From an uncultured Ignavibacteria bacterium (GTDB taxonomy: Bacteria; Bacteroidota; Ignavibacteria; SZUA-365), in NCBI GenBank assembly GCA_913061095.1, contig CAJXVM010000013.1, forward strand, positions 62,001-126,000: 64,000 bases of DNA. Direction: 5' to 3'. The position numbers and the translations under genes are program-made. The first letter of the stretch is position 1. The number at the start of each line of letters is the position of its first letter. Below the pieces are notes generated by a model, which did not search any database, had not been told where the DNA came from, and saw nothing but the letters and a program-made list of their open reading frames with translations. Shown here piece by piece: positions 7,319 to 57,225 of the stretch.

Positions 7319-8611
7319 TTACTGGATCCAATCGGCGATGCGATCCATGGCCTCAATGGTATCCGCACAGTGCACGGAAAGGAAGTCGTCCGGAAGGGGC
7401 GCATCCAGAGGGATGCCTTCACTCGCTGCAAGGGCCTCGGCACCATCAAAATTCACATAGGCGAGTCGGGCGGTGAGTTCATCGGGGGGACGACCGAAAT
7501 CCACACCGGGCAGGATGGCCACGCCGGTATCGAGAAGAAGACGCTCGGAAAGTTCTCTGCTGTCGTGTATCCCGGTTTCGCGCAGCAGGTCCGCATGCGG
7601 AGAGAAATCCGCGAACAGGTAGAACGCCCCGTTTGGATTGTGCACGCGAATGCCCGCACCCTGCAGAATGTGTGCGCATTCCATCCCCAGCTTGTGCAGG
7701 ATGCGCCGCACATGGCTGAGATACTCCTCGATCTTCCTTCCTCCCCGAAACGCATGCACCGCGGCGTATTGAATCGGTGCGCTCACCGAGGTGAATGTCT
7801 CGCTTGCCGCCACGGCCATGGCATCCATCAGCCAGGAGAGGTTCTTGGGAAATGTGAATGTACCGAGACGCCATCCCCCGGCGCCGCACCATTTCGAGAG
7901 TCCCGAACTGATGATCGTGCCCTCCGGGTAAAAGCGTGCGATGGAGAAATGTCCACCCCTGTGTGCAAGCTGTCCGTAAATCTCATCCGAGAGCAGAAGA
8001 ATTTCATATTCGCGCGCCGCTTCCGCAATGCGCTGCAGCTCCTCCATGGTATAGGTATCGCCGTCGGGATTACCGGGATAGTTGAGGATCATTAGCCGGG
8101 GACGATAGGTATCGTCTTCCTGCTCGAGGTAATCGACCATGCGCTCTGCGGTGATGCGCCAGCGCTCCTCATACGTCGTGTGAATCAGCTTGACGTTGCG
8201 TCCGATGATCTGGGCCTGTGGCATGTATGACACCCAGCAGGGCGTGGGCAGCAGGATCTCTCCGTAATACACCAGCTGCAGGAGGAACATCAGCTCCTTT
8301 GAACCGGGACCGATAAGCACACCGTCCGGTGAAGCGTTGACATGATCCTTGCGCCGATGGAAGTCGGCGACCGCCTCGCACAGATCCAGCAGTCCCTTGA
8401 CGGGAAGATAATCCTTTTCGGGAGCGTGGTGGCGCAGGGCTTCGACGATGGGTTCGGGGACGGGAAACGGCGACTGGCCCAGGCCCAGTTTGTATACCGT
8501 CTTCCCCGCGCGGCGCATTTCGTTGCAGCGCTCATTGATCGCAAGCGTCGCGGAGGGTTTGAGTCCCCGCACGTTCATGTTGAGACTGATATTCTTTCCG
8601 TTGATGCTCAT
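7319..8611 (-). CDS. PLP-dependent aminotransferase, class I/II fold
   Basis: 430 aa, fold-type I aminotransferase. The core shows the NYPGNPDG loop, the SDEIYGQL strand with the cofactor-binding Asp, and SSGLSKWCGAGGWRLG with the lysine that binds pyridoxal phosphate. The substrate cannot be read from the sequence; relatives are aspartate, alanine or branched-chain transaminases. The start is the ATG giving MSINGKN. It lies 34 bp after the PIG-L deacetylase gene on the same strand, so the two are probably co-transcribed. It converges with smc. Confidence 0.88.
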   Translation of the reverse strand: MSINGKNISLNMNVRGLKPSATLAINERCNEMRRAGKTVYKLGLGQSPFPVPEPIVEALRHHAPEKDYLPVKGLLDLCEAVADFHRRKDHVNASPDGVLIGPGSKELMFLLQLVYYGEILLPTPCWVSYMPQAQIIGRNVKLIHTTYEERWRITAERMVDYLEQEDDTYRPRLMILNYPGNPDGDTYTMEELQRIAEAAREYEILLLSDEIYGQLAHRGGHFSIARFYPEGTIISSGLSKWCGAGGWRLGTFTFPKNLSWLMDAMAVAASETFTSVSAPIQYAAVHAFRGGRKIEEYLSHVRRILHKLGMECAHILQGAGIRVHNPNGAFYLFADFSPHADLLRETGIHDSRELSERLLLDTGVAILPGVDFGRPPDELTARLAYVNFDGAEALAASEGIPLDAPLPDDFLSVHCADTIEAMDRIADWIQ

Positions 8612-8645
8612 CGTTCGCTTCCGGATGATGTGCTGGCTTCCGTTG

Positions 8646-9383
8646 TCAGGCAGTTCCCGGATCGAGACCGTGGAACAGGTCTCCGACCGGCGGTTGAAAA
8701 ACCTCCCCAAAAAAACTGAAATATTCCTGTTCCCACAACATCCAGTTGTCGAAGTTGTTTTCCTCCACATCGCGTCGAACGCTGTGATGCGCCCGCAGTG
8801 CGCGTTCCTCGGTTTCCCGCCATGCGGACACATCGATGACGGCGTCGATGCGTTCTTCCGGAGCGCCGAAAATTGCACGCGGCCATGTGTGCACCCGTTC
8901 GCGGGGCAGCACGCAGAAGCAGAGACGCTGAAGCGGCGGAATGTCCTCGCGGAGTTCAACGAACAGCCGCTTGACGATGTGATGTGTGGTAATGTGATCC
9001 GGATGCACCGAGCCCCCCTGCACATCGAACGTGCAGATGACATGGGGGCGTACCGCGCGGACTCGCTCCGCCACGTCGCGTTCGAGAATGCGCGGATCCA
9101 GGTCCCGCAATCCCCCGTCGGGATAGCTGTCGAGATACAGATGCCGGATACCGAGGATCGCGGCGGCCCGCTGCAACTCGTCGCTGCGAATCGTGGCCAT
9201 TTCTTCCGGCCGCATCTGCTGGGCCGCGGCGTTGCGGCTGTTCTCTCCGGATGTCAGCGTATGCAGCGACACCTCCGCTCGTTCGCTGAGTGCGTACGAT
9301 GCAATCGTGCCGCCCATCAGGAAGCTCTCGTCATCCGGATGCGGAAAAATACACAGCAGCCGAAATACCGGAATATCTGACAT
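8646..9383 (-). CDS. PIG-L (LmbE) family N-acetylglucosaminyl deacetylase
   Basis: 245 aa. The zinc-binding HPDDE motif is at 15-19 and HPDH near 128, the two hallmark metal sites of PIG-L enzymes. Members remove the acetyl group from GlcNAc-linked substrates, as in bacillithiol (BshB) and mycothiol synthesis or in lipid-linked sugars. The size and motifs fit BshB, but no bshA or bshC is visible, so the substrate is open. No signal peptide is seen, so it is cytoplasmic. It heads a two-gene unit with the aminotransferase. Confidence 0.88.
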   Translation of the reverse strand: MSDIPVFRLLCIFPHPDDESFLMGGTIASYALSERAEVSLHTLTSGENSRNAAAQQMRPEEMATIRSDELQRAAAILGIRHLYLDSYPDGGLRDLDPRILERDVAERVRAVRPHVICTFDVQGGSVHPDHITTHHIVKRLFVELREDIPPLQRLCFCVLPRERVHTWPRAIFGAPEERIDAVIDVSAWRETEERALRAHHSVRRDVEENNFDNWMLWEQEYFSFFGEVFQPPVGDLFHGLDPGTA

Positions 9384-9442: not shown

Positions 9443-12073
9443 TCATCTCAGCAGCAGCATGCGTCGCGTGGCGACGGCAGCCCCTGCTGCACGGAGCACG
9501 GTGATATAGGTGCCGCTCGGCAGATCGGCGGCATCGAAGTGGAATCGATGCGTGCCGGCGGGGAGAAATCCTTCGTACAGCCGCGCCGCCAGCCGACCGA
9601 GATGGTCGAATACATCGAGTGTCACATCCGCGTCGCGCCGGAGCATGGCATCAATGCGCGTCGAAGGATTGAATGGATTCGGACTGTTGCTGATCACGAA
9701 ATCCCGCGTCGCCTCCAGGGGATACAGGCAGTCACCCGACACCACCGCCTGCCCGTGATAGTACCGCGCCAGCACCGAGCCGCGGTTGACCGCGCTGGCA
9801 ACCGTGTCGAACTCAAGAGGAGTGATCGCCCATTTGAGGATGTCGGCACCATCACCGAAACGGACACGAAAGCGCATACGAATGAGCTCGCCTATTCCCT
9901 CCAGTGCTGCAGCGGCATTCCGCGCATGAAAGGAAACGCGGCCGCCGCTGCCACTGGCAGAAATGCTCCAGTTCTCTTCAAGCAGTGTTCCTTCGCGCTC
10001 CCAGGCGAGAAACTCGACGAGTGATTCGTCATAGGTGACGAACAGTTCGATATCTTTGATGTCTTTGTTCTGTGACTCGTCAATGAGGATGGAAGCGCTG
10101 AATTCCTTTCCATGGCGGGCGACAAGATTGCCCGGCAGCGTGAAAACGGTCACCGGCGGGATGCCGATGATGAATATCCAGTCGTCACAGATCGCGCTCA
10201 GCTCCCCGGAGCGAAATTCGACCTGTATTGTATCCAGAGATCCGTCGCGCTTCTTTTCCGGTGTCAGCTGCCAGGTGACCGTCCAGCTCGAATCCGGCGG
10301 CAGCGGACGCCCGAGGTATTTCACCGCTGACTCATTTGCCGGAAGGCTCACATTGGGAGGAAGCAGCACGGTCGCCTGCAGATCGCGCGCGGCAATGCTG
10401 CCGTTATTGAACACCGTCGCCGTCCACGTCAGCGGGTCATATTCCAGCGTCGCAATGCTGTAATGCAGTGTGTCGTCCGGTATCGTCTCCGCGGCGCAGG
10501 TCAGCTCCGGAACGAGCGCGGCGGCGATATGCACATTGCACACGGTGCTCACCGTGGGATTGTTTACGCTGATAATGCGCACGCGCAGCGCAAGATCGCG
10601 CGGCTGCTGGACGGGCAGCGGAGCGATGCGCCACTGCAGTTCCTCCTGTGCGGAGGGCAGCAGTTCCTCGGTTACGAATACACGCGTTGTTGTCGGTTGT
10701 ACAAACCGGATATCCGGATCGGCGACAATGATTTCAGCAAACACGGAATCCGCGGGATCAGTCCCGGTGTTTCGCAGCTGTACGTCGACGGTAAATTCCG
10801 AGGGCTGGTACAGGCCTGACTGCGCATCGACGCGCACAGTATCGGGAACGACCAGACAGCTCACCTCGAGATCGGGCTCGCGCACGGCCGGCAGGATGAG
10901 ACTGTCGCAGCATTCGGCCGTCCTGTTGAATTCGTCGAACACACGAACGCAGATTGCGCTGCTGTCGGCTTCGTATACGTCGCGCGCACGTACTGTCCAC
11001 TGCACCGTTTTCTCGGACTGTGGATCCATGTCGCCGATGAATATTTCCGACGAACTGCCGCCTTCCAGCACGTATGCAACAGGGAGCGCAAGGACAGCGC
11101 GCACGTTCTTTGCCCGGCTGTCACCGGTGTTGCGCACGACGACATTCCACGGGAAGGGATTCGGCACATAGCGGCCGTCTTCAAACACGATTTCGGGATC
11201 ACTGTCGCATTCGAGTTCGAACAGCACCTCCCGAGTCGGCGGAATGGTCAGATCAAAGGAACACGTACTCTCGATGATTTGATCACCGAGACCGCCCTTT
11301 CCCTGCACCTGGAACTGCAGCGCCACGGTCGTGTCGGTGCCCCGCGGCACGGCGTGCAGCATGAAGCTGCGCTCGACGTTCTCCGAAGGCTGCAGCTCGC
11401 CAATCGTGATCACTCCGCTCTGTCCATCGGCAAGTTTCAGGTCGGGTGTGGCCGCGAACAGCAGACGGGTTTCCTTCGAAGGCGCATCACCGTTATTCGT
11501 GACGACGAGGCGTACCTCGAACGGATCCGGGACGTAGCTGTTGAGTGTATCCACAAACGAGATGCTGATGCTTCCCGATTCGGGACACTGGACATCGTTG
11601 AGCGGACGATATTCCTTCTCCACCCAGATAATCCAGCTGCATTCGGTGCGGGCGCCGTCCTTTCCCGAGACCGCGATCGTGATCGTGTCGAGTCCGCTTT
11701 CGCTTCGAGGATTTACCTGCAGCGAGAAATCCGCGCGGAGGGTGTCCCCCGGCATGAAACGTGATGCGAGCAGTTTCGTCGCGGGAGGAATGATGGTGAA
11801 GCGCTGATTGGACCGCGGGAAGGCGACGACGGAATCGACCGCGATGCTGCCGGCATTGATGAGCTCCAGGTGCACGGAGAATGTTCCGGGGAGATAGCGG
11901 TTGAAATCCACCTTGTCGAAAAACACGGAATCTGGACCGATGACGCCGCAGCGCATGTCAGCGTTGCCGGTCTGTGCATCGATGTTCGCAAGAGGTGACA
12001 GCAGGAACAGCGAAAGGACCACGAGGGTCCTTCCACATTTCATAAGGATGGTGTGCAGAATTGTTGTCATCAT
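9443..12073 (-). CDS. Secreted protein with five two-cysteine repeats, a cohesin-like domain and a T9SS tail
   Basis: 876 aa. A signal peptide (ending NIDAQ) is followed by five repeats of about 115 aa. Each repeat carries an early Cys, a YxPNPF-type turn, a VxNxG strand, an LxP segment, a W-containing strand and a late Cys. A cohesin-like beta domain follows (starting near FTLPGNLVARHGKE), then a C-terminal T9SS type-A sorting domain (SPNPFNPSTR ... LPAGTHRFHF ... MLLLR). It is therefore probably exported through T9SS and attached to or released from the cell surface. Its start is 1 bp after the stop of the larger paralogue, so the two are translationally coupled. An internal ATG (MKCGRTLVV), ten codons in, would give an equally good signal peptide. 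Confidence 0.82.
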   Translation of the reverse strand: MMTTILHTILMKCGRTLVVLSLFLLSPLANIDAQTGNADMRCGVIGPDSVFFDKVDFNRYLPGTFSVHLELINAGSIAVDSVVAFPRSNQRFTIIPPATKLLASRFMPGDTLRADFSLQVNPRSESGLDTITIAVSGKDGARTECSWIIWVEKEYRPLNDVQCPESGSISISFVDTLNSYVPDPFEVRLVVTNNGDAPSKETRLLFAATPDLKLADGQSGVITIGELQPSENVERSFMLHAVPRGTDTTVALQFQVQGKGGLGDQIIESTCSFDLTIPPTREVLFELECDSDPEIVFEDGRYVPNPFPWNVVVRNTGDSRAKNVRAVLALPVAYVLEGGSSSEIFIGDMDPQSEKTVQWTVRARDVYEADSSAICVRVFDEFNRTAECCDSLILPAVREPDLEVSCLVVPDTVRVDAQSGLYQPSEFTVDVQLRNTGTDPADSVFAEIIVADPDIRFVQPTTTRVFVTEELLPSAQEELQWRIAPLPVQQPRDLALRVRIISVNNPTVSTVCNVHIAAALVPELTCAAETIPDDTLHYSIATLEYDPLTWTATVFNNGSIAARDLQATVLLPPNVSLPANESAVKYLGRPLPPDSSWTVTWQLTPEKKRDGSLDTIQVEFRSGELSAICDDWIFIIGIPPVTVFTLPGNLVARHGKEFSASILIDESQNKDIKDIELFVTYDESLVEFLAWEREGTLLEENWSISASGSGGRVSFHARNAAAALEGIGELIRMRFRVRFGDGADILKWAITPLEFDTVASAVNRGSVLARYYHGQAVVSGDCLYPLEATRDFVISNSPNPFNPSTRIDAMLRRDADVTLDVFDHLGRLAARLYEGFLPAGTHRFHFDAADLPSGTYITVLRAAGAAVATRRMLLLR

Positions 12074-12074
12074 C

Positions 12075-15000
12075 TCATCGGGAAAGGATCATTTTCCGCA
12101 CCTCGAAGCGGCCCGACGTTTCGAGCCGATAGAAATAGAGACCGGAAGGAAGATCATCGGCGATGAATTCTACCAGATGCTCCCCGGCTTCACGGAAGCC
12201 ATCGACCAGTGTGCTGATCTCGCGCCCGTGGCGATCGAATACAGTCAGGCGGACGAACGCATCCTGCGGCAGGTGGAAGGCGATTGTCGTGCGCGGATTG
12301 AATGGATTCGGACGGTTCTGCTCGAGCGCGAAATTCTCGGAGGCCAGCAGCGGTTCGAGGCACTGATTCGTTGCAATGACGCGGCCGGGTACCGTCCCGA
12401 GATCGATTTCACCGCGATTGAGCACCGACAGGCCCGAATCGATTTCCATCATGGATTCGCCGTAATCGGCACGCGCGCTGTTATCGTTGAAAATACCCTC
12501 CACCTGCAGCTTCAGCAGTACACCGGATTCTGTGGCCAGAGGCGTGCCCGTCGTGTAGTCGCTTATTTCAACATGACCGTGAGCCTTTTCCTTCAGCTTC
12601 GCGCCGACCCAGCCAATGCCTGTCAGCGTACCGGTATTGCTGACACCGAGCAGGGAAAGTACGGAGGGATCATAGTGGAACTGCAGCACATATTCTGAAA
12701 GATCCTTCCCGATCGTACGGTCGATAAACACGGGGATGTCGACTTTCTGTCCGTAGCGCAGCAGCGTGTATTCCGGAAGCGACAGTGTCACATGTTTCGG
12801 TGAACCCTGGATGAAGAGGTCGTCCATGCATTCCGCATCCGCGGCATTGTCGGCGCGGGCAACGAAACGGAACTGCCGCATCTTGTCTTCATCCGCACGC
12901 TTGGCACGGAAGCGCCAGGTCACGGAACCGCTCTCACCCGGCTTCAGCAGCGACGGAGTCACGGGTTTCTGCGTGTCCTCGCCCTCACTGAGCAGCACGC
13001 CCGACGGTACGACAAGCAGGGCGCGCACATTGCGGGCATCCACCGCGCCGTTGTTCGTGACTGTCAGCAGCAGCGTGCATTCGGGATGTTCGTAATCGCC
13101 GGTTTCCCAGTCGAAGAAGAGCGAATCTTCGGGCATGGAACTGCAGATCGCGTCGAGTTCGGGAGTCTGCATGGCCGGAACGTGTACGACCACCTGGCAT
13201 TCACGCGTGTCGTGATTGTCGGAGCGCACAGTCAGCATCATCGGGATGTCTGCCGGCGCATCGCGGCGCAGTGCCTCCACTTTCCAGGTCACGCGCGCGG
13301 AGCCGTTCGCCGTCAGCCGCCCCACCGGCTTCTCAATGTCGTCGAGGACGTTCATGAAAGATCCCAGCACGCTGATAGAGGCACGCACATTCTCCGCGTC
13401 GCCGAGACCGACGTTGGTCAGGTTCAGGATGACGTCGAATGGATTCCCGAGATACTGCCCGGTTCCGGAGTCGAGAAACAGCGTGTCGACGGACCAGCAC
13501 GATGGCATGATGATGGGATTTTCCGTCTTCGGGATGAACACATCCTGGCAGCATTGCTCGCTGATGCCGATCGAATCGATCACCTGCGCACAAACGCGGT
13601 ACGTGCCGTCATTGGCGCGCATCTCGGGATGGAGGCGCCATTCGAGGTCCACGCTCTGTCCGATCCCGAGCTCTGGGATGTATCGATCCGCGGTCTCGCC
13701 CTCCGCAAGCGATACGGAAGGCGGAACGATCAGTGTCGGAGAAAGCCCGCGTCCCGCTGCGTTGCCGCTGTTTGTCACGCGCATGGAAAAAATCAGCGGG
13801 TCGGGCTGATATCGGTTGTCCCGGTATTCGAGCGTGTCGGGGATCGAGCAGTTCAGCGTGTATTCCGGTCCCCGCACGGCGGGAACAAATACGGGAAGCC
13901 TGCACTCGGCGATCACGATCTGACGGCCCAGTCCGCCGCGGCCCATGATCTGGAAAACCAATGTGTCCCAGACCGCGGTGTGCCGCGGCAGTGCGCGCAC
14001 GGTCCACTGCTCGATGTGTTTGTCACCGATGTTCATCGTGCCGGCAGGACGCGGATTGTTTCCGACCGGTGTGAAACTCGGCGGACCGACGAACATGATC
14101 TGGCACTCTTCAGCATAGGTTTCGCCGATGTTCTCGGCGACAGTTGTCACGACAAAGGGATTCGGCACGTAGTCGTAAATCTCGTCGCTGAATTCCAGCG
14201 AGTCGTCGGGTGTGCTGCACAGCAGCGAGAATTCGGGCATCCGCACACGCTGCACCCAGATGGGATATGAGCACCAGGCGGGATTCGACTCCTCTCCCTG
14301 GATGTTGACGCGCACGGTGTCATATCCGTCGGTTTCGCGAGGATGGATTTTCACCCGGAACGTTCCGTCCGCCGATTCGGTGGGCAGCAGCACGTCGGCC
14401 AGCTGTTTGTGCGCGGGCGGAACGATGGTGAAACGCGTATCCTGCAGCAGCTGTGCGCGAACATCCTTTGTCTGTCCGCTGCCGACATTCGTCGCACGTA
14501 CCTCGATGTCGAATTCTTCGGGTTCGTAGTATTGCTCCCGGAAATAGATGGTGTCGGGGGCGCTGATGTCACAGACCAGCGCGGAGGACAACGCGGGATC
14601 CACGACGATGCGTTTCCAGCAGGCGATGGTGGGATGGTTGTCGGAGATGACCGAGAAATAGATCGGGATGGAGTCAAGGTTCTCCTGCTCCGTCGCCAGC
14701 AGTTTCCAGCGCGCCGTTGCACTGCCGCCGGGTGGAATAATTTTCGGCGTGACATCCTGCACATCCGTGGTCGGCGTGACGAGCTGTACGATGTCAGGGT
14801 CGGTCACCAGCACCGCGCGTACGTTCCACGCCTCCTTGGTGCCGGTGTTGAATACCGTCACGGAAACATCGAAGGGATTCGGCTCATAGCGTTTTTCCTC
14901 GTCGTTCCAGTTCAGCGCATCCGGCGCGGTGACTTCGCAGTTCAGGATGGGCTCGCGCGGATTGATCTTGATGCGGCCATTATGCATCTGCGGGGTCAGG

Positions 15001-16286
15001 CAGTAGGCGTGGAAATCCCAGTTGATCAAGTACAGCGGACTGTACGTCACCTTCGCCACGTCTCCCGCGCGGAAATGCAGGTAAAACAGCACACCTCCTG
15101 TTGTCTGCAGCCGGGTATGCTCCTGGATATGAACGAGTACCGATGATGTCAGCAGCTGTGCCGACACCGCGTGTCCCTCGAGAAGCGTTCCGTCCGTGCT
15201 GATGCCTGTACACTGCAGCACGTTGTGGTCGTAGCCGATGCTGACATCCGACTTGCTGAACACGGCATCCACCGGTGTCTCCAGGATGACCGGGATGATA
15301 ACTTCTTTCGTGGAACCGACTTCCGCGTCACCGATTTTCATTCCCACCGGCTTGAACTGAGTTCTGTCGAGCGGGGCGACGTAGGTGCGTGTACGCGCAA
15401 CCGCCTGGCCGCCACAGAAATCCTTCAGCACCAGCTCGACATTGCGCATGCTGCCGTCAGGACAATCGGTTTCGTAGCTGATGATGCACTCCTGGTAGGC
15501 ATCCTGCACACTCTCGCGGATCGACGCGTAGATCTGTGCGAGGTCCGCGCCGTCGGGTGAGTAATAGTATTGCCCGCCGGTTGAAAGCGCGAGATATTCG
15601 AGTGCCTGTCCGTGAATGGGCTGCTGCAGACCGTAACCGATAGTATAGACCTTGACGCCCTGCGAAATTGCGAACTGCGTCACCGCGGAGACAGTAAGGA
15701 AGTACTGACTGCTGTTATCTCCCCCGTCCGTGAGCACGATAACGGCCTTGCATCGGTTGGTCGCGGAATTGATGAGTTCCTGAATGCCGACGGCAACAGC
15801 GTCCCACAGCGCCGTGCGTCCGACCGGTTCAAAGCTGTTGATCGCATTGATCAGTGCCGGTTTGCTGCTCGTCATGCTCTGATCGAGCGAAACGATTTCA
15901 CGGAAGCTGACCACTGACGCTTCGTCACAGGGCAGTCCGTTGGGATTCATCGAATTGACAAAGGCGATGCCGCCTTCCTTGACACGCTCGATCTTTTCTC
16001 CTTGCATGCTGCCAGACCGGTCAAACACCATCGAGACCGAGACGCAGCATTCCGGCTCGGGCGGACAATATAGCGTCGCGTCCTCGACCTTGATTCCGTT
16101 TTCGTAGACTTCGTAATGTTCCGGTTGGAGGTAGTTTTCGAAGGAGCCGTCGCACGTGGCTTTGAAGGCCAGGTTGATCGTCGGGTAATTGACCTCGATA
16201 CGCTTGAAGAGCAGATTGGGCTGTGCGTTCAGAGGCTGAAAGAGGGCAACGGCGAGGAGAACAGCAAACAGGTAACGTATCACCAT
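12075..16286 (-). CDS. Large VWA, cohesin-like and two-cysteine repeat surface protein with T9SS tail
   Basis: 1403 aa. After the signal peptide (ending PLNAQ) comes a von Willebrand A domain (about 75-270) with an intact MIDAS: DRSGSM, a Thr in VGRTALWD, and TDGGDN. Next are a first cohesin-like domain (about 310-435), six two-cysteine repeats of about 115-125 aa, a second cohesin-like domain, and a T9SS sorting tail starting at RPNPFNPRTT and ending ILSR. VWA domains bind protein ligands through a metal ion, and cohesins in other bacteria bind dockerins. A role in adhesion or in a surface assembly is inference. It heads an operon with the 876-aa paralogue. Confidence 0.83.
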   Translation of the reverse strand: MVIRYLFAVLLAVALFQPLNAQPNLLFKRIEVNYPTINLAFKATCDGSFENYLQPEHYEVYENGIKVEDATLYCPPEPECCVSVSMVFDRSGSMQGEKIERVKEGGIAFVNSMNPNGLPCDEASVVSFREIVSLDQSMTSSKPALINAINSFEPVGRTALWDAVAVGIQELINSATNRCKAVIVLTDGGDNSSQYFLTVSAVTQFAISQGVKVYTIGYGLQQPIHGQALEYLALSTGGQYYYSPDGADLAQIYASIRESVQDAYQECIISYETDCPDGSMRNVELVLKDFCGGQAVARTRTYVAPLDRTQFKPVGMKIGDAEVGSTKEVIIPVILETPVDAVFSKSDVSIGYDHNVLQCTGISTDGTLLEGHAVSAQLLTSSVLVHIQEHTRLQTTGGVLFYLHFRAGDVAKVTYSPLYLINWDFHAYCLTPQMHNGRIKINPREPILNCEVTAPDALNWNDEEKRYEPNPFDVSVTVFNTGTKEAWNVRAVLVTDPDIVQLVTPTTDVQDVTPKIIPPGGSATARWKLLATEQENLDSIPIYFSVISDNHPTIACWKRIVVDPALSSALVCDISAPDTIYFREQYYEPEEFDIEVRATNVGSGQTKDVRAQLLQDTRFTIVPPAHKQLADVLLPTESADGTFRVKIHPRETDGYDTVRVNIQGEESNPAWCSYPIWVQRVRMPEFSLLCSTPDDSLEFSDEIYDYVPNPFVVTTVAENIGETYAEECQIMFVGPPSFTPVGNNPRPAGTMNIGDKHIEQWTVRALPRHTAVWDTLVFQIMGRGGLGRQIVIAECRLPVFVPAVRGPEYTLNCSIPDTLEYRDNRYQPDPLIFSMRVTNSGNAAGRGLSPTLIVPPSVSLAEGETADRYIPELGIGQSVDLEWRLHPEMRANDGTYRVCAQVIDSIGISEQCCQDVFIPKTENPIIMPSCWSVDTLFLDSGTGQYLGNPFDVILNLTNVGLGDAENVRASISVLGSFMNVLDDIEKPVGRLTANGSARVTWKVEALRRDAPADIPMMLTVRSDNHDTRECQVVVHVPAMQTPELDAICSSMPEDSLFFDWETGDYEHPECTLLLTVTNNGAVDARNVRALLVVPSGVLLSEGEDTQKPVTPSLLKPGESGSVTWRFRAKRADEDKMRQFRFVARADNAADAECMDDLFIQGSPKHVTLSLPEYTLLRYGQKVDIPVFIDRTIGKDLSEYVLQFHYDPSVLSLLGVSNTGTLTGIGWVGAKLKEKAHGHVEISDYTTGTPLATESGVLLKLQVEGIFNDNSARADYGESMMEIDSGLSVLNRGEIDLGTVPGRVIATNQCLEPLLASENFALEQNRPNPFNPRTTIAFHLPQDAFVRLTVFDRHGREISTLVDGFREAGEHLVEFIADDLPSGLYFYRLETSGRFEVRKMILSR

Positions 16287-16575: not shown

Positions 16576-17136
16576 TCATTTTTTATCGTCTTTTTTCTTC
16601 TCGAACTCCAGCGACACGGAATTGATACAGTAGCGGAGTCCGGTGGGCTGCGGGCCGTCCTCGAATACGTGCCCGAGATGTCCGCCGCACTGGGCGCACA
16701 GCACTTCCTCACGCACCATTCCGTGGCTGTAATCCTTCTGGATCACGATGTTCGCCTCGCCGGCAGGCGCGTAAAAGCTCGGCCATCCCGAGCCGGAGTG
16801 ATACTTCTCGTTTGACCGGAACAGCTCGGCGCCACATCCCGCGCAGCGGTACACACCGTCATCGTCATGCTTGTAATACTTTCCGGTGAAGGCGACCTCG
16901 GTGCCCTTTTCGCGAAGGATGCGAAACTGCTGTTCGGTCAGCTCTTTCTTCCAGGTCTGATCGTCTTTCTGTATGGGAAACATTGCTGATTCTCCTTGTT
17001 CATGTGCGCGCAATTCAGTCTGCCGGCCTTCATCTCCTTCCATGAGTTCGTCGCCACAGCTCTGTGCCTGGCAGCCGGTGGTGGAAAGAAGAAAACCGAG
17101 AAACAGAGCAGGAATCGAGAGGGAAATATAATTCAT
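16576..17136 (-). CDS. msrB: Peptide-methionine (R)-S-oxide reductase MsrB, predicted lipoprotein
   Basis: MsrB reduces the R-sulfoxide of methionine in oxidised proteins. The 186-aa product has an export signal of about 21 residues ending STTGC, a relaxed lipobox, so it is probably a periplasm-facing lipoprotein rather than the usual cytoplasmic enzyme. The catalytic domain (from about residue 50) shows two zinc CxxC pairs (CAGC and CAQC), GSGWPSF, and the catalytic Cys in LRYCINSVS. The ATG of MNYISLS is chosen because it starts the signal sequence; a cytoplasmic form could start at MFPIQK. It is monocistronic with its own terminator. Confidence 0.92.
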
Positions 17137-17336
17137 GAGTGCTTCCGTTTCGTGGAACGTTCGTACTGTCTGGTCCATACAAAACAAGGAATTCACTGGC
17201 GGAAGTTCAATGGAAAAGAAAAGATACGGGTGAAGGTGCGAGGAGACTCGCGCGGTATTGAATCCAGGCGCTGTTTTTCCCTCGAGGCACAGATTGCGTA
17301 TATTATGATCTGTCGACACTGAAACACTACGGATTG

Positions 17337-53615: not shown

Positions 53616-54305
53616 ATGGAAGTCATTCGGCTCGAACAGATCGAAAAAATCTACTCCGACAACGGCGTGCCCGTGCACGCGCTGCGCGGCATCGACCTGC
53701 GCATTTCGCAGGGAGAATTCACGGTCATCGCCGGACCGTCGGGCTCCGGCAAGACCACGCTGCTCAACGTCATGGGGGCGCTGGACACTCCGACCGAGGG
53801 CACGGTATTTCTCGAGAACGAAGACATCAGCGAAAAATCCCGTGCGGAAATCTCGGCTTTCCGTCTCGAGAAGCTGGGCTTTGTGTTCCAGGCCTTCAAT
53901 CTCATTCCGGTACTGACGGCGATGGAGAACATCGAATTCGCCATGATGCTGCTCGGTATTGAGGAAAAGCACCGCCGCGACCGCGCGCGAGAGATCATGT
54001 CGGAACTCGGCATCGAGGAACTCGCCGGCAAGCGTCCGAATGAAATGAGCGGCGGACAGCAGCAGCGAGTCGCCGTCGCGCGGGCCATTGTCAACAATCC
54101 TTCCATCATCCTCGCGGACGAGCCCACCGCCAATCTCGATTCCGACACCGGCGCGAACCTCCTCGATCTGATGGAGAAAATGAACCGCGACCACAATCTC
54201 ACCTTCATTTTCTCCTCGCATGACCGCCAGGTCATCGACCGCGCGCATCGCCTGATCCGTCTCACCGACGGACGCATCGAAAGCGACGAGCAGGTGAAGC
54301 AATGA
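53616..54305 (+). CDS. ABC transporter ATPase, LolD/MacB type
   Basis: 229 aa. Walker A GPSGSGKTT, Q-loop VFQAFNLIP, signature MSGGQQQR, Walker B ILADEPTANLD and the switch His in FSSHDRQV are all intact. The sequence is of the LolD/MacB class that powers FtsX-type permeases. A 110-bp gap separates it from the permeases, and it overlaps the barrel gene by ATGA. Confidence 0.94.
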   Translation: MEVIRLEQIEKIYSDNGVPVHALRGIDLRISQGEFTVIAGPSGSGKTTLLNVMGALDTPTEGTVFLENEDISEKSRAEISAFRLEKLGFVFQAFNLIPVLTAMENIEFAMMLLGIEEKHRRDRAREIMSELGIEELAGKRPNEMSGGQQQRVAVARAIVNNPSIILADEPTANLDSDTGANLLDLMEKMNRDHNLTFIFSSHDRQVIDRAHRLIRLTDGRIESDEQVKQ

Positions 54306-55591
54306 AAGGAACACGCGCGCGTGCATGCGGGAAAACGTCGGCCTCGGCCGGCAGACGGGCACGGGCAATCGCATTCAGGGGGATATGCGCGCGTGCGTTC
54401 GCCATTCTCATCGTATGTCTGCTGATGCGCGCGCCCGCGCACGCACAGCCGGAGCTCGAATTCTCGGGCTACGTCATCGACCTGCCCAGCTATCAGCGCA
54501 TGCCAGACTACGCGAGCGAGCTTCCGCCGTTCATGGCGGATCAGTTTGATCTCGACCGCAACATGGGCGTGAACCTGATCCGGCTGCGTCTGCGTCCCAC
54601 CCTGCATCTCTGGGACGGCGCCAGCATCGCGCTTGAGCACGAGATCAACGAGACCGTCATGACGCAGGAGATGCTCTTCGGCGACATCCCCGACATCACG
54701 AATCGGCAGCTCGTCGATCTGCGCTGGCATCCCGTCACCGAGGATCACTGGCAGATGCAGCACTACGTCGACCGGCTGTACTTCCGGCAGAATTTCCTGT
54801 GGGGAAGCATTGTCGCAGGACGCCAGCGCATCTCCTGGGGCACCGGACGCATCTGGAATCCCACCGACCTGTTCAATCCCATCAATCCCGCCAGCTTCGA
54901 CAAGATCGAAAAGGACGGCGCCGACGCGGTGTCATTCAAGTACTATTTCGGCTCCTTCACCGACCTCCAGGTCGTGTGGAATCCACGACGCGCGCGCGGG
55001 CAGCGTGACGGCGCCCCGGACGCGCCCGACAGCAGCAACTACGGGGCGCGCTTCCGCACGAATTTCGGGGAGTTCGACCTATCCGTCATGGGGGGATGGT
55101 TCGATCGGCGCACCGTGCTGGGAGGGGATTTCGCCGGGAATCTCTTCGACGCGGGCGTGCGCGGGGAGATGATTTTCGTGATGGACGGCGACGGTTCCGG
55201 GCAGGACGGTTACGCGCGTTTCATCCTCGGGGCGGATTATCAGCTCACCGGGAAACTGTACGGTGTCGTTGAATACCTGCACAACGGTGAGGGAAAGGAG
55301 GATGCGGGCTCATACGAATTGACCCGGCTGTTCCGCGGGGAGATCCTCAACCTCGCGCGCGACTACGTCTATCTCGGCGGCACATATCAACTGCACCCGC
55401 TCGTGACCGGCAGCCTGGGCGTGATCGGCGGACTCACCGACGGCAGCGGCTTCCTGAACGCCACCGCCTCGTGGTCCTCGTCCGACAACTCCGTCGTCAG
55501 CGCGGGACTGCTCCTCCCCTACGGATCCCCCCGTGACGAATACTGGTATTACCCCTCCTCGCTCTACCTCAAAGGCGAATACTACTTCTGA
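54302..55591 (+). CDS. Outer-membrane beta-barrel protein of the export operon
   Basis: 429 aa. A long signal peptide (about 49 residues, ending PAHAQ) is followed by alternating beta strands typical of a porin-like barrel (DITNRQLVDLRWHPV, SIVAGRQRISWGTGRIWNPT, YVYLGGTYQLHPLVTGSLG). The last residue is Phe (KGEYYF), the standard BAM recognition signal. The GRQRISWGTGR segment recalls DUF1302/alginate-export-like porins. It may be the outer-membrane exit or receptor of the ABC system; that is inference from coupling. Confidence 0.83.
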   Translation: MKGTRARACGKTSASAGRRARAIAFRGICARAFAILIVCLLMRAPAHAQPELEFSGYVIDLPSYQRMPDYASELPPFMADQFDLDRNMGVNLIRLRLRPTLHLWDGASIALEHEINETVMTQEMLFGDIPDITNRQLVDLRWHPVTEDHWQMQHYVDRLYFRQNFLWGSIVAGRQRISWGTGRIWNPTDLFNPINPASFDKIEKDGADAVSFKYYFGSFTDLQVVWNPRRARGQRDGAPDAPDSSNYGARFRTNFGEFDLSVMGGWFDRRTVLGGDFAGNLFDAGVRGEMIFVMDGDGSGQDGYARFILGADYQLTGKLYGVVEYLHNGEGKEDAGSYELTRLFRGEILNLARDYVYLGGTYQLHPLVTGSLGVIGGLTDGSGFLNATASWSSSDNSVVSAGLLLPYGSPRDEYWYYPSSLYLKGEYYF

Positions 55592-55707: not shown

Positions 55708-57225
55708 TCACCGCATCAAAACCATCTTGCGCAACCGCACGACATTCCCCGCGGTGAGGCGGGTGAAATAGATGCCCGGGCGGAGTCCCGCCGCGTCGAA
55801 ACGCAGCGTATGTTCGCCGGCAGCGCGGAGTTCGGCATCCACCAGTCGCCGGACCTCGCGTCCCAGCGCGTCGGTGACCGTCACCGTGACCGGCATGGCC
55901 CGCGGCAGTGTGAAACGCACCGCGGCCGAAGCGGTGAAGGGATTCGGGTGCACGGGATGCAGCACGCACCGCAACGGGGTGGGCGGACCAGCTGCGCCTG
56001 TGGTCCGCACGCTCGCGATGGACAGTCGGTGAGCGCATGGGATCGGATTGAGTTCGTCGTCGAAGGCGATCACCCGAATCTCCACGTTGCTCCGCGTAAT
56101 ACGGTTCGTCACATCGATGATCCATTCGAACGTCTCTTCCTCGCCGCCGTCGAGTGACAGCTTCGGATCGAAGCTCACCGGATTCGGCGAGGCCGGATTC
56201 AGGCTCAAACCGTCCGATATCGGGAAGTAGAGGAGGACCCGATCGATCGAGCCGACCTGATGCGAAATGTTCCGGATGGTGTATCGAACTGTGAAGGGAT
56301 TCGGTTCCACCTCGGTGCCGGCAGCGTTCAGAGCGAGTGAATCCGGGATCTCGAGCAGGCAGGAATAATATGGCAGGAGTCCCGGGACCGGCACGTCGCA
56401 ACGTACCTCCACTGAATCCAGCCGCATCCCCGCTTCGTTCACACCGGTGACCAGGAAGCTGAATATCGGCCGCACGTCATACCGAAGGCGCTTCGTCCAG
56501 CGCACCGTCCATTCGAGCTCTGGAATCGGATCGCCAACCTGCCAGTGCTCCATGCTCATCGGATTGAAGTATTTTGTTTTCGGCTGACCGGGCGGATCGA
56601 GTACCACGTCCTCCGGAAGGACGATCGTCCCGGTCACGCTGTCCGCGCGCATGTTTCCCGTGTTCACGCAGGTCAGCCGCACATCAAACGGATTGGGAGC
56701 GTAGCTCCCCAGTTCATCATCGAATCTCAGTGAATCCGGCGTAACGCAGCGGGGACTGAGTATCGGCCAGGCGAGCTTCGGGATAACGACCTCCGCTTCA
56801 CAGTACGAGGAATCCGCGTTGCGCGCCCGCACCCACACGCCGACCGTGTAGCGTTTCTCCACCGATGTCGGCGGATGCTGAATCATCCACTGGGCGGTGC
56901 CGGACTGTCCGGGAAAGAGCCGCGGTTTCTGCACGAGTTTGATCACGTTGTCCGGCGCATCGGCCCCCGCGAGCCGGAGACTGCTGTGGAGGTCGTCCGG
57001 CAGTTCGATGCGCGCAGTGATCGAATCGGTGAGCTGATTGCCGATATTCTCCACCGTCACGGTCACCGGGAACGGCATCGGATCGTAGCGCAGGTTTTCG
57101 TAATCGGCCGTGATCTCCGGAACGGAGACCCCGCAGCTGAGTATCGGCTGCTGCGCTGCCGCGGGAGTGATTATACATGCAAATACTAGCGCGACCAGAA
57201 TGCCTCGTTTCGGTTGCGATCCCAT
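55708..57225 (-). CDS. Secreted protein with three two-cysteine repeats and a T9SS tail
   Basis: 505 aa. Signal peptide ending AAAQ. Three repeats of about 120-135 aa follow, of the same kind as in the 9.4-16.3 kb proteins (LSCGVSVPE ... YDPMPFPVTVTVENIG; CVTPDSLRFDDELGSYAPNP; SCLLEIPDSLALNAAGTE). A T9SS sorting tail (HPNPFTASAAV ... GIYFTRLTAG ... MVLMR) closes it. It lacks the cohesin-like and VWA domains, so it is the smallest of the three paralogues. It is encoded alone, about 40 kb from the other two. Confidence 0.82.
   Translation of the reverse strand: MGSQPKRGILVALVFACIITPAAAQQPILSCGVSVPEITADYENLRYDPMPFPVTVTVENIGNQLTDSITARIELPDDLHSSLRLAGADAPDNVIKLVQKPRLFPGQSGTAQWMIQHPPTSVEKRYTVGVWVRARNADSSYCEAEVVIPKLAWPILSPRCVTPDSLRFDDELGSYAPNPFDVRLTCVNTGNMRADSVTGTIVLPEDVVLDPPGQPKTKYFNPMSMEHWQVGDPIPELEWTVRWTKRLRYDVRPIFSFLVTGVNEAGMRLDSVEVRCDVPVPGLLPYYSCLLEIPDSLALNAAGTEVEPNPFTVRYTIRNISHQVGSIDRVLLYFPISDGLSLNPASPNPVSFDPKLSLDGGEEETFEWIIDVTNRITRSNVEIRVIAFDDELNPIPCAHRLSIASVRTTGAAGPPTPLRCVLHPVHPNPFTASAAVRFTLPRAMPVTVTVTDALGREVRRLVDAELRAAGEHTLRFDAAGLRPGIYFTRLTAGNVVRLRKMVLMR

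Follow-up and report, generated by a model that had tools for sequence, protein, structure and literature searches.

The window, a 64,000-nucleotide stretch of DNA from an uncultured Ignavibacteria bacterium, encodes three proteins that together carry 14 copies of a cysteine-containing module of about 115 aa (five in protein A, six in protein B and three in protein C), and we consider it reasonably probable that these modules are stalk domains, stapled by disulfides, with which surface proteins exported through the T9SS present VWA and other binding heads. That the disulfides form, how they pair, and that the modules lie at the cell surface are points we infer from the evidence laid out below. 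The novelty is at the level of the cysteine pattern, not of the fold.

Protein B (1403 aa, 12075–16286, minus strand) consists, in order, of a hydrophobic N-terminus judged by eye to resemble a signal peptide, a VWA domain with a DRSGSM motif, a cohesin-like domain, six Cys modules, a cohesin-like region and a T9SS tail, with Pfam scores of 54.9 bits for VWA and 30.9 bits for Cohesin and a TIGR04183 score of 24.1 bits for the tail; its orthologues are 48–80% identical. The gene for protein A (876 aa, 9443–12073, minus strand) lies 1 bp downstream of the protein B gene, and a B-A pair was present in all 11 genomes of the same family for which the locus was retrieved. Protein A is a paralogue of residues 572–1403 of protein B (28% identity), with five Cys modules, a cohesin-like region recognized by eye and by homology to protein B, and a weak T9SS tail that scores 14.7 bits against a Pfam cut-off of 27 and gives no TIGR04183 match at E ≤ 1. 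Protein C (505 aa, 55708–57225, minus strand) joins a hydrophobic, signal-peptide-like N-terminus to three Cys modules and a T9SS tail (TIGR04183, 28.8 bits).

All three ORFs are present as described in the sequence-only reading, although its span of 9443–16286 covers only two of the three proteins, A and B, with C lying outside it. That reading combined the modules with cohesin-like and VWA domains, as the Pfam matches in protein B bear out, and held that the proteins always end in T9SS tails; the tail of A is only weakly recognized. TIGR04183 exceeds 23 bits in proteins B and C and in five of eight other module proteins. The recurrent order in module proteins is an N-terminal VWA domain, sometimes a cohesin-like domain, 1–10 modules, an Ig-like or cohesin-like domain, and the T9SS tail; in one protein (L063:1488-5285) two modules precede IgGFc_binding (188 bits) and Laminin_G_3 domains. 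In its own genome (G000) the protein C T9SS tail has well over 100 matching places, spread over many contigs, so the exported repertoire is very large. As to the surrounding genes, a methionine sulfoxide reductase B gene (SelR, 168.8 bits; 16576–17319, minus strand) lies directly upstream of the protein B gene, a class I/II aminotransferase gene (PF00155, 160.3 bits; 7319–9043, minus strand) lies downstream of the protein A gene and in the same orientation, and a 429-aa ORF with a hydrophobic N-terminus and no Pfam match at E ≤ 1e-5 (54302–55591, plus strand) is convergent with the protein C gene.

The modules, all on the minus strand, lie in protein B at 14595–14954 (B1), 14247–14588 (B2), 13878–14234 (B3), 13524–13865 (B4), 13173–13514 (B5) and 12804–13160 (B6), in protein A at 11615–11965 (A1), 11237–11602 (A2), 10883–11224 (A3), 10514–10873 (A4) and 10163–10513 (A5), and in protein C at 56776–57150 (C1), 56374–56763 (C2) and 56011–56376 (C3). 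Their mean pairwise identity is 22%, and high conservation is confined to a few sites, namely Cys, Y-x-P-x-P-F, V-x-N-x-G, W and Cys. In a MAFFT alignment of the 14 modules Cys6 and the Asn of VxNxG are present in 14/14, the Tyr and the Gly in 13/14, and the Trp column holds Trp in 11/14 and Phe in 3/14, while the late Cys falls at its aligned column in 13 of the 14, that of module C2 being a few residues off. A profile built from the six protein B modules alone was then run on proteins A and C, and it matched all five protein A modules (domain E-values of 1e-13 to 2e-18) and all three protein C modules (6e-14 to 1e-6), with zero matches to 400 shuffled copies. The count of 14 copies as 6+5+3 given by the sequence-only reading is thus recovered in full, and its description of an early Cys, a late Cys, a YxPNPF-like turn, VxNxG and a Trp strand agrees with the column counts; its single "late Cys" did not separate the further cysteines of modules such as A3 and B4, each of which has one on the penultimate strand and a CC doublet in the last.

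The fold of one repeat, as had been proposed earlier, was predicted. An AlphaFold2 model of module B4, made from a 124-sequence alignment, is all beta with a pLDDT of 97.2 and a pTM of 0.87, and places Cys6 in the first strand, Cys92 in the penultimate strand and Cys105/106 in the last. The PDB structures that resemble it belong to Ig-like E-set domains; VIA Z reaches 12.9, over 104 residues, and is 11–13 for domains of complement C3, transglutaminase and A2M and for the GH20 C-terminal domain. The fold is therefore an ordinary E-set sandwich and not new. The full-length AlphaFold2 model of protein A had a low pTM (0.35) and was left out of the work on module arrangement and fold. Short, weak matches to arrestin and GH3 Ig domains in a PDB sequence search were taken as generic Ig similarity.

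No Pfam or NCBIfam model covers the full length of the module, and CARDB, DUF11 and NEW3 match only its middle. Among 124 single modules searched at E ≤ 0.01, 13 match NEW3, 12 CARDB and 10 DUF11; the best CARDB stretches are partial (2–49 and 13–71 of 101, best single-module E-value 7e-4), and NEW3 covers 10–75 of 78 on module B4 at 20.3 bits against a cut-off of 24.4. At the level of whole proteins, CARDB (PF07705) exceeds its cut-off in A (46.3 bits) and B (42.5 bits) and falls short of it in C (14.6 against 22.7 bits), DUF11 (PF01345) scores 36.1 bits in A and 30.9 bits in B against a cut-off of 24.6, and NPCBM_assoc/NEW3 (PF10633) passes its cut-off in both A and B. Given these whole-protein scores, the ordinary E-set fold, and the Cys-free single-copy homologues found in other families, the modules are not supported as a new kind of domain; they are a Cys-stapled, lineage-expanded variant within the CARDB/DUF11/NEW3 neighbourhood. 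The sequence-only reading is in this respect partly supported: its "new-looking" holds for the paired-Cys family, which lacks a full-length model, but not for the fold, and CARDB/DUF11-type Ig folds were its own nearest idea.

What distinguishes the modules is the behavior of their cysteines. Across 498 modules the first- and last-strand Cys are both present in 443, both absent in 31 and discordant in 24 (Fisher 7e-30, with kinship not fully corrected and most Cys-free modules coming from a single orthologue family), while none of the Tyr, Trp and Gly columns is significantly coupled with the early Cys. A second, optional pair on the penultimate and last strands is coupled almost perfectly, with 90 modules having both, 350 neither and 5 only one; collapsed at 50% identity the counts are 37, 180 and 3 clusters. 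When the Cys columns are masked and a tree is built, its resolution is poor, and the 17 and 19 changes of the two sites reduce to 20 joint ones; kinship is allowed for to this extent. In module B4 the predicted disulfides are C813–C912, between the first and last strands, and C899–C913, between the penultimate and last; in the hairpin register derived by hand from the strand limits, residue 92 faces 106 if 96 pairs with 102. This co-occurrence argues for disulfides, and from the sequences and the model the first and last strands of the module are probably tied by one. Against this, cysteine is hardly enriched in the modules (1.9% compared with 1.7% elsewhere in the same proteins). The genome encodes a VKOR (69 bits), which fits the oxidation of exported proteins, as well as SprA (1003 bits).

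The Cys-bearing form is concentrated in one order. The organism's own genome has about 61 module copies, and each of the 16 genomes of the same order examined, own included, has 32–107. A wider profile (A4), run in searches that scored up to 30 or 15 candidates per genome, gave at least 30 matches in every one of these 16 genomes, at least one to three weak matches in 14 of 133 other genomes of the class, and at least one or two in 21 of 295 other genomes in the phylum sample. The named near relatives among GTDB-based contigs, searched with an orthologue alignment (A2), are uncultured MAGs labelled 'Bacteroidetes', 'Bacteroidota' or 'Ignavibacteria'. Ten modules from outside the order were read, and none had a Cys at either of the two columns. 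Such modules elsewhere in the class and phylum (L135–L143) are homologous, with TPNPF and N-x-G motifs, T9SS tails and scores of 39–54 bits, and mostly occur as a single copy per genome; at 27–36% identity they are about equally near to many Cys modules, and the tree does not set them apart. In one genome many module genes are clustered (L083/L086; G008:C1:4347000-4367000), with near-identical stretches about 9.5 kb apart that suggest a recent segmental duplication. We found no description in the literature of this domain or of Ignavibacteria with T9SS surface proteins, and searches on CARDB with disulfides returned only unrelated papers.

That Cys-free modules survive in relatives and, within the order, in a single orthologue family is also what would be expected were the modules plain CARDB/DUF11/NEW3-type spacers, in which disulfides serve general extracellular stability with no role in bearing force and the proteins are perhaps surface or matrix linkers that are not adhesins. 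The ordinary E-set fold and the above-cut-off CARDB, DUF11 and NEW3 scores of whole proteins fit this as well. However, almost every one of the roughly 500 modules carries its Cys pair on the first and last strand, and many proteins repeat a layout in which tandem modules are flanked by a VWA head and a T9SS tail. Both points speak against plain spacers, a reading we regard as unlikely while still giving it appreciable weight. The family inside the order, to which most Cys-free modules belong, is a tandem-module protein (L065:2581-5820, with orthologues in L095 and L117) whose modules, with few exceptions, have neither Cys, and it offers a natural no-disulfide comparison.

It was also necessary to consider whether the late Cys bonds not within its own module but with the early Cys of the next, stiffening junctions in place of modules. 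The two are close in sequence, about 16 residues apart, and they too tend to be present or absent together (both in 333 cases, neither in 18, only one in 15). Nevertheless, the early Cys is kept in 107 of 122 first modules, the late Cys in 109 of 122 last modules, and both in 7 of 10 isolated modules, all of which favors pairing within the module; moreover, Cys-free modules beside intact ones lose both Cys jointly, and in the predicted fold a single sandwich bears one of them on its first strand and the other on its last. Complementary single losses occur in a few proteins (L092, L102 and L122). On balance a bond between modules appears improbable. More improbable still is that the cysteines bind a metal or cofactor or link separate molecules within a cell-surface layer. 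Some modules do have an extra unpaired Cys (column 43, 34 modules), but the coupled pairs are two and separate, and no conserved set of His or acidic ligands accompanies them.

Known systems indicate what a tie within the module might do. Isopeptide or ester bonds between first and last strands make the Ig stalk domains of Spy0128 and Cpe0147 inextensible (PMC8382745). Spy0128 and the Cpe0147 C1 domain share with the present modules a covalent first-to-last strand tie (here putative), tandem Ig domains and a surface stalk, while the modules differ in using what would be a disulfide, in T9SS export and in their Gram-negative lineage; no sequence relation between the two was found. DUF11 is itself an isopeptide-clamped domain, CLIPPER, with a Lys-Asn bond and a catalytic Asp (K715, D748 and N806), and 29.7% of CLIPPER domains are reported to have disulfides in addition to this bond (PMC12617251). 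DUF11/CLIPPER (PF01345) and CLIPPER_2 (DUF7507, PF24346) are also tandem Ig-like E-set surface stalks, often with a Por_Secre_tail, but the modules have coupled Cys pairs on the first/last and penultimate/last strands in place of the isopeptide triad: among the first 30 columns Lys never exceeds 8%, and the matching places hold neither a conserved acid nor a conserved Asn. CARDB likewise forms Ig-like repeats, but the Cys strands of the modules fall outside the CARDB match.

By analogy with these clamped stalks we infer a mechanical role. The modules would build the stalks of cell-surface proteins exported by the T9SS. Each would be an Ig-like (E-set) domain whose conserved first-strand Cys bonds the conserved Cys of the last strand, with a second disulfide from the penultimate to the last strand in about one fifth of them. 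A pulling force entering a module at one end would then travel through the S-S bond to the other end, bypassing the sandwich core, and tandem modules would as a result form a protease- and force-resistant stalk, which may keep the binding heads (VWA with a MIDAS-like motif, cohesin-like, IgGFc-binding and laminin-G-like) off the outer membrane. The module proteins would, in short, be fibrillar adhesin-like stalks.

Tentatively, and with slightly less than even confidence, we suggest that one uncultured order uses one or two disulfides where CLIPPER-like adhesin stalks have an isopeptide clamp, and that it has expanded the resulting module to about 30–100 copies per genome. These proteins would then be a Gram-negative equivalent, exported by the T9SS, of the covalently clamped adhesin stalks of Gram-positive bacteria. 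The modules of this single fold with one, two or no predicted bonds would be a natural set for mechanical comparison, and with the module profile about twenty or more proteins in each genome that lack annotation can be named. If the bonds form, for which a single 115-aa domain suffices as a test, an environmental Gram-negative order would have its own chemistry for force-resistant adhesin stalks.
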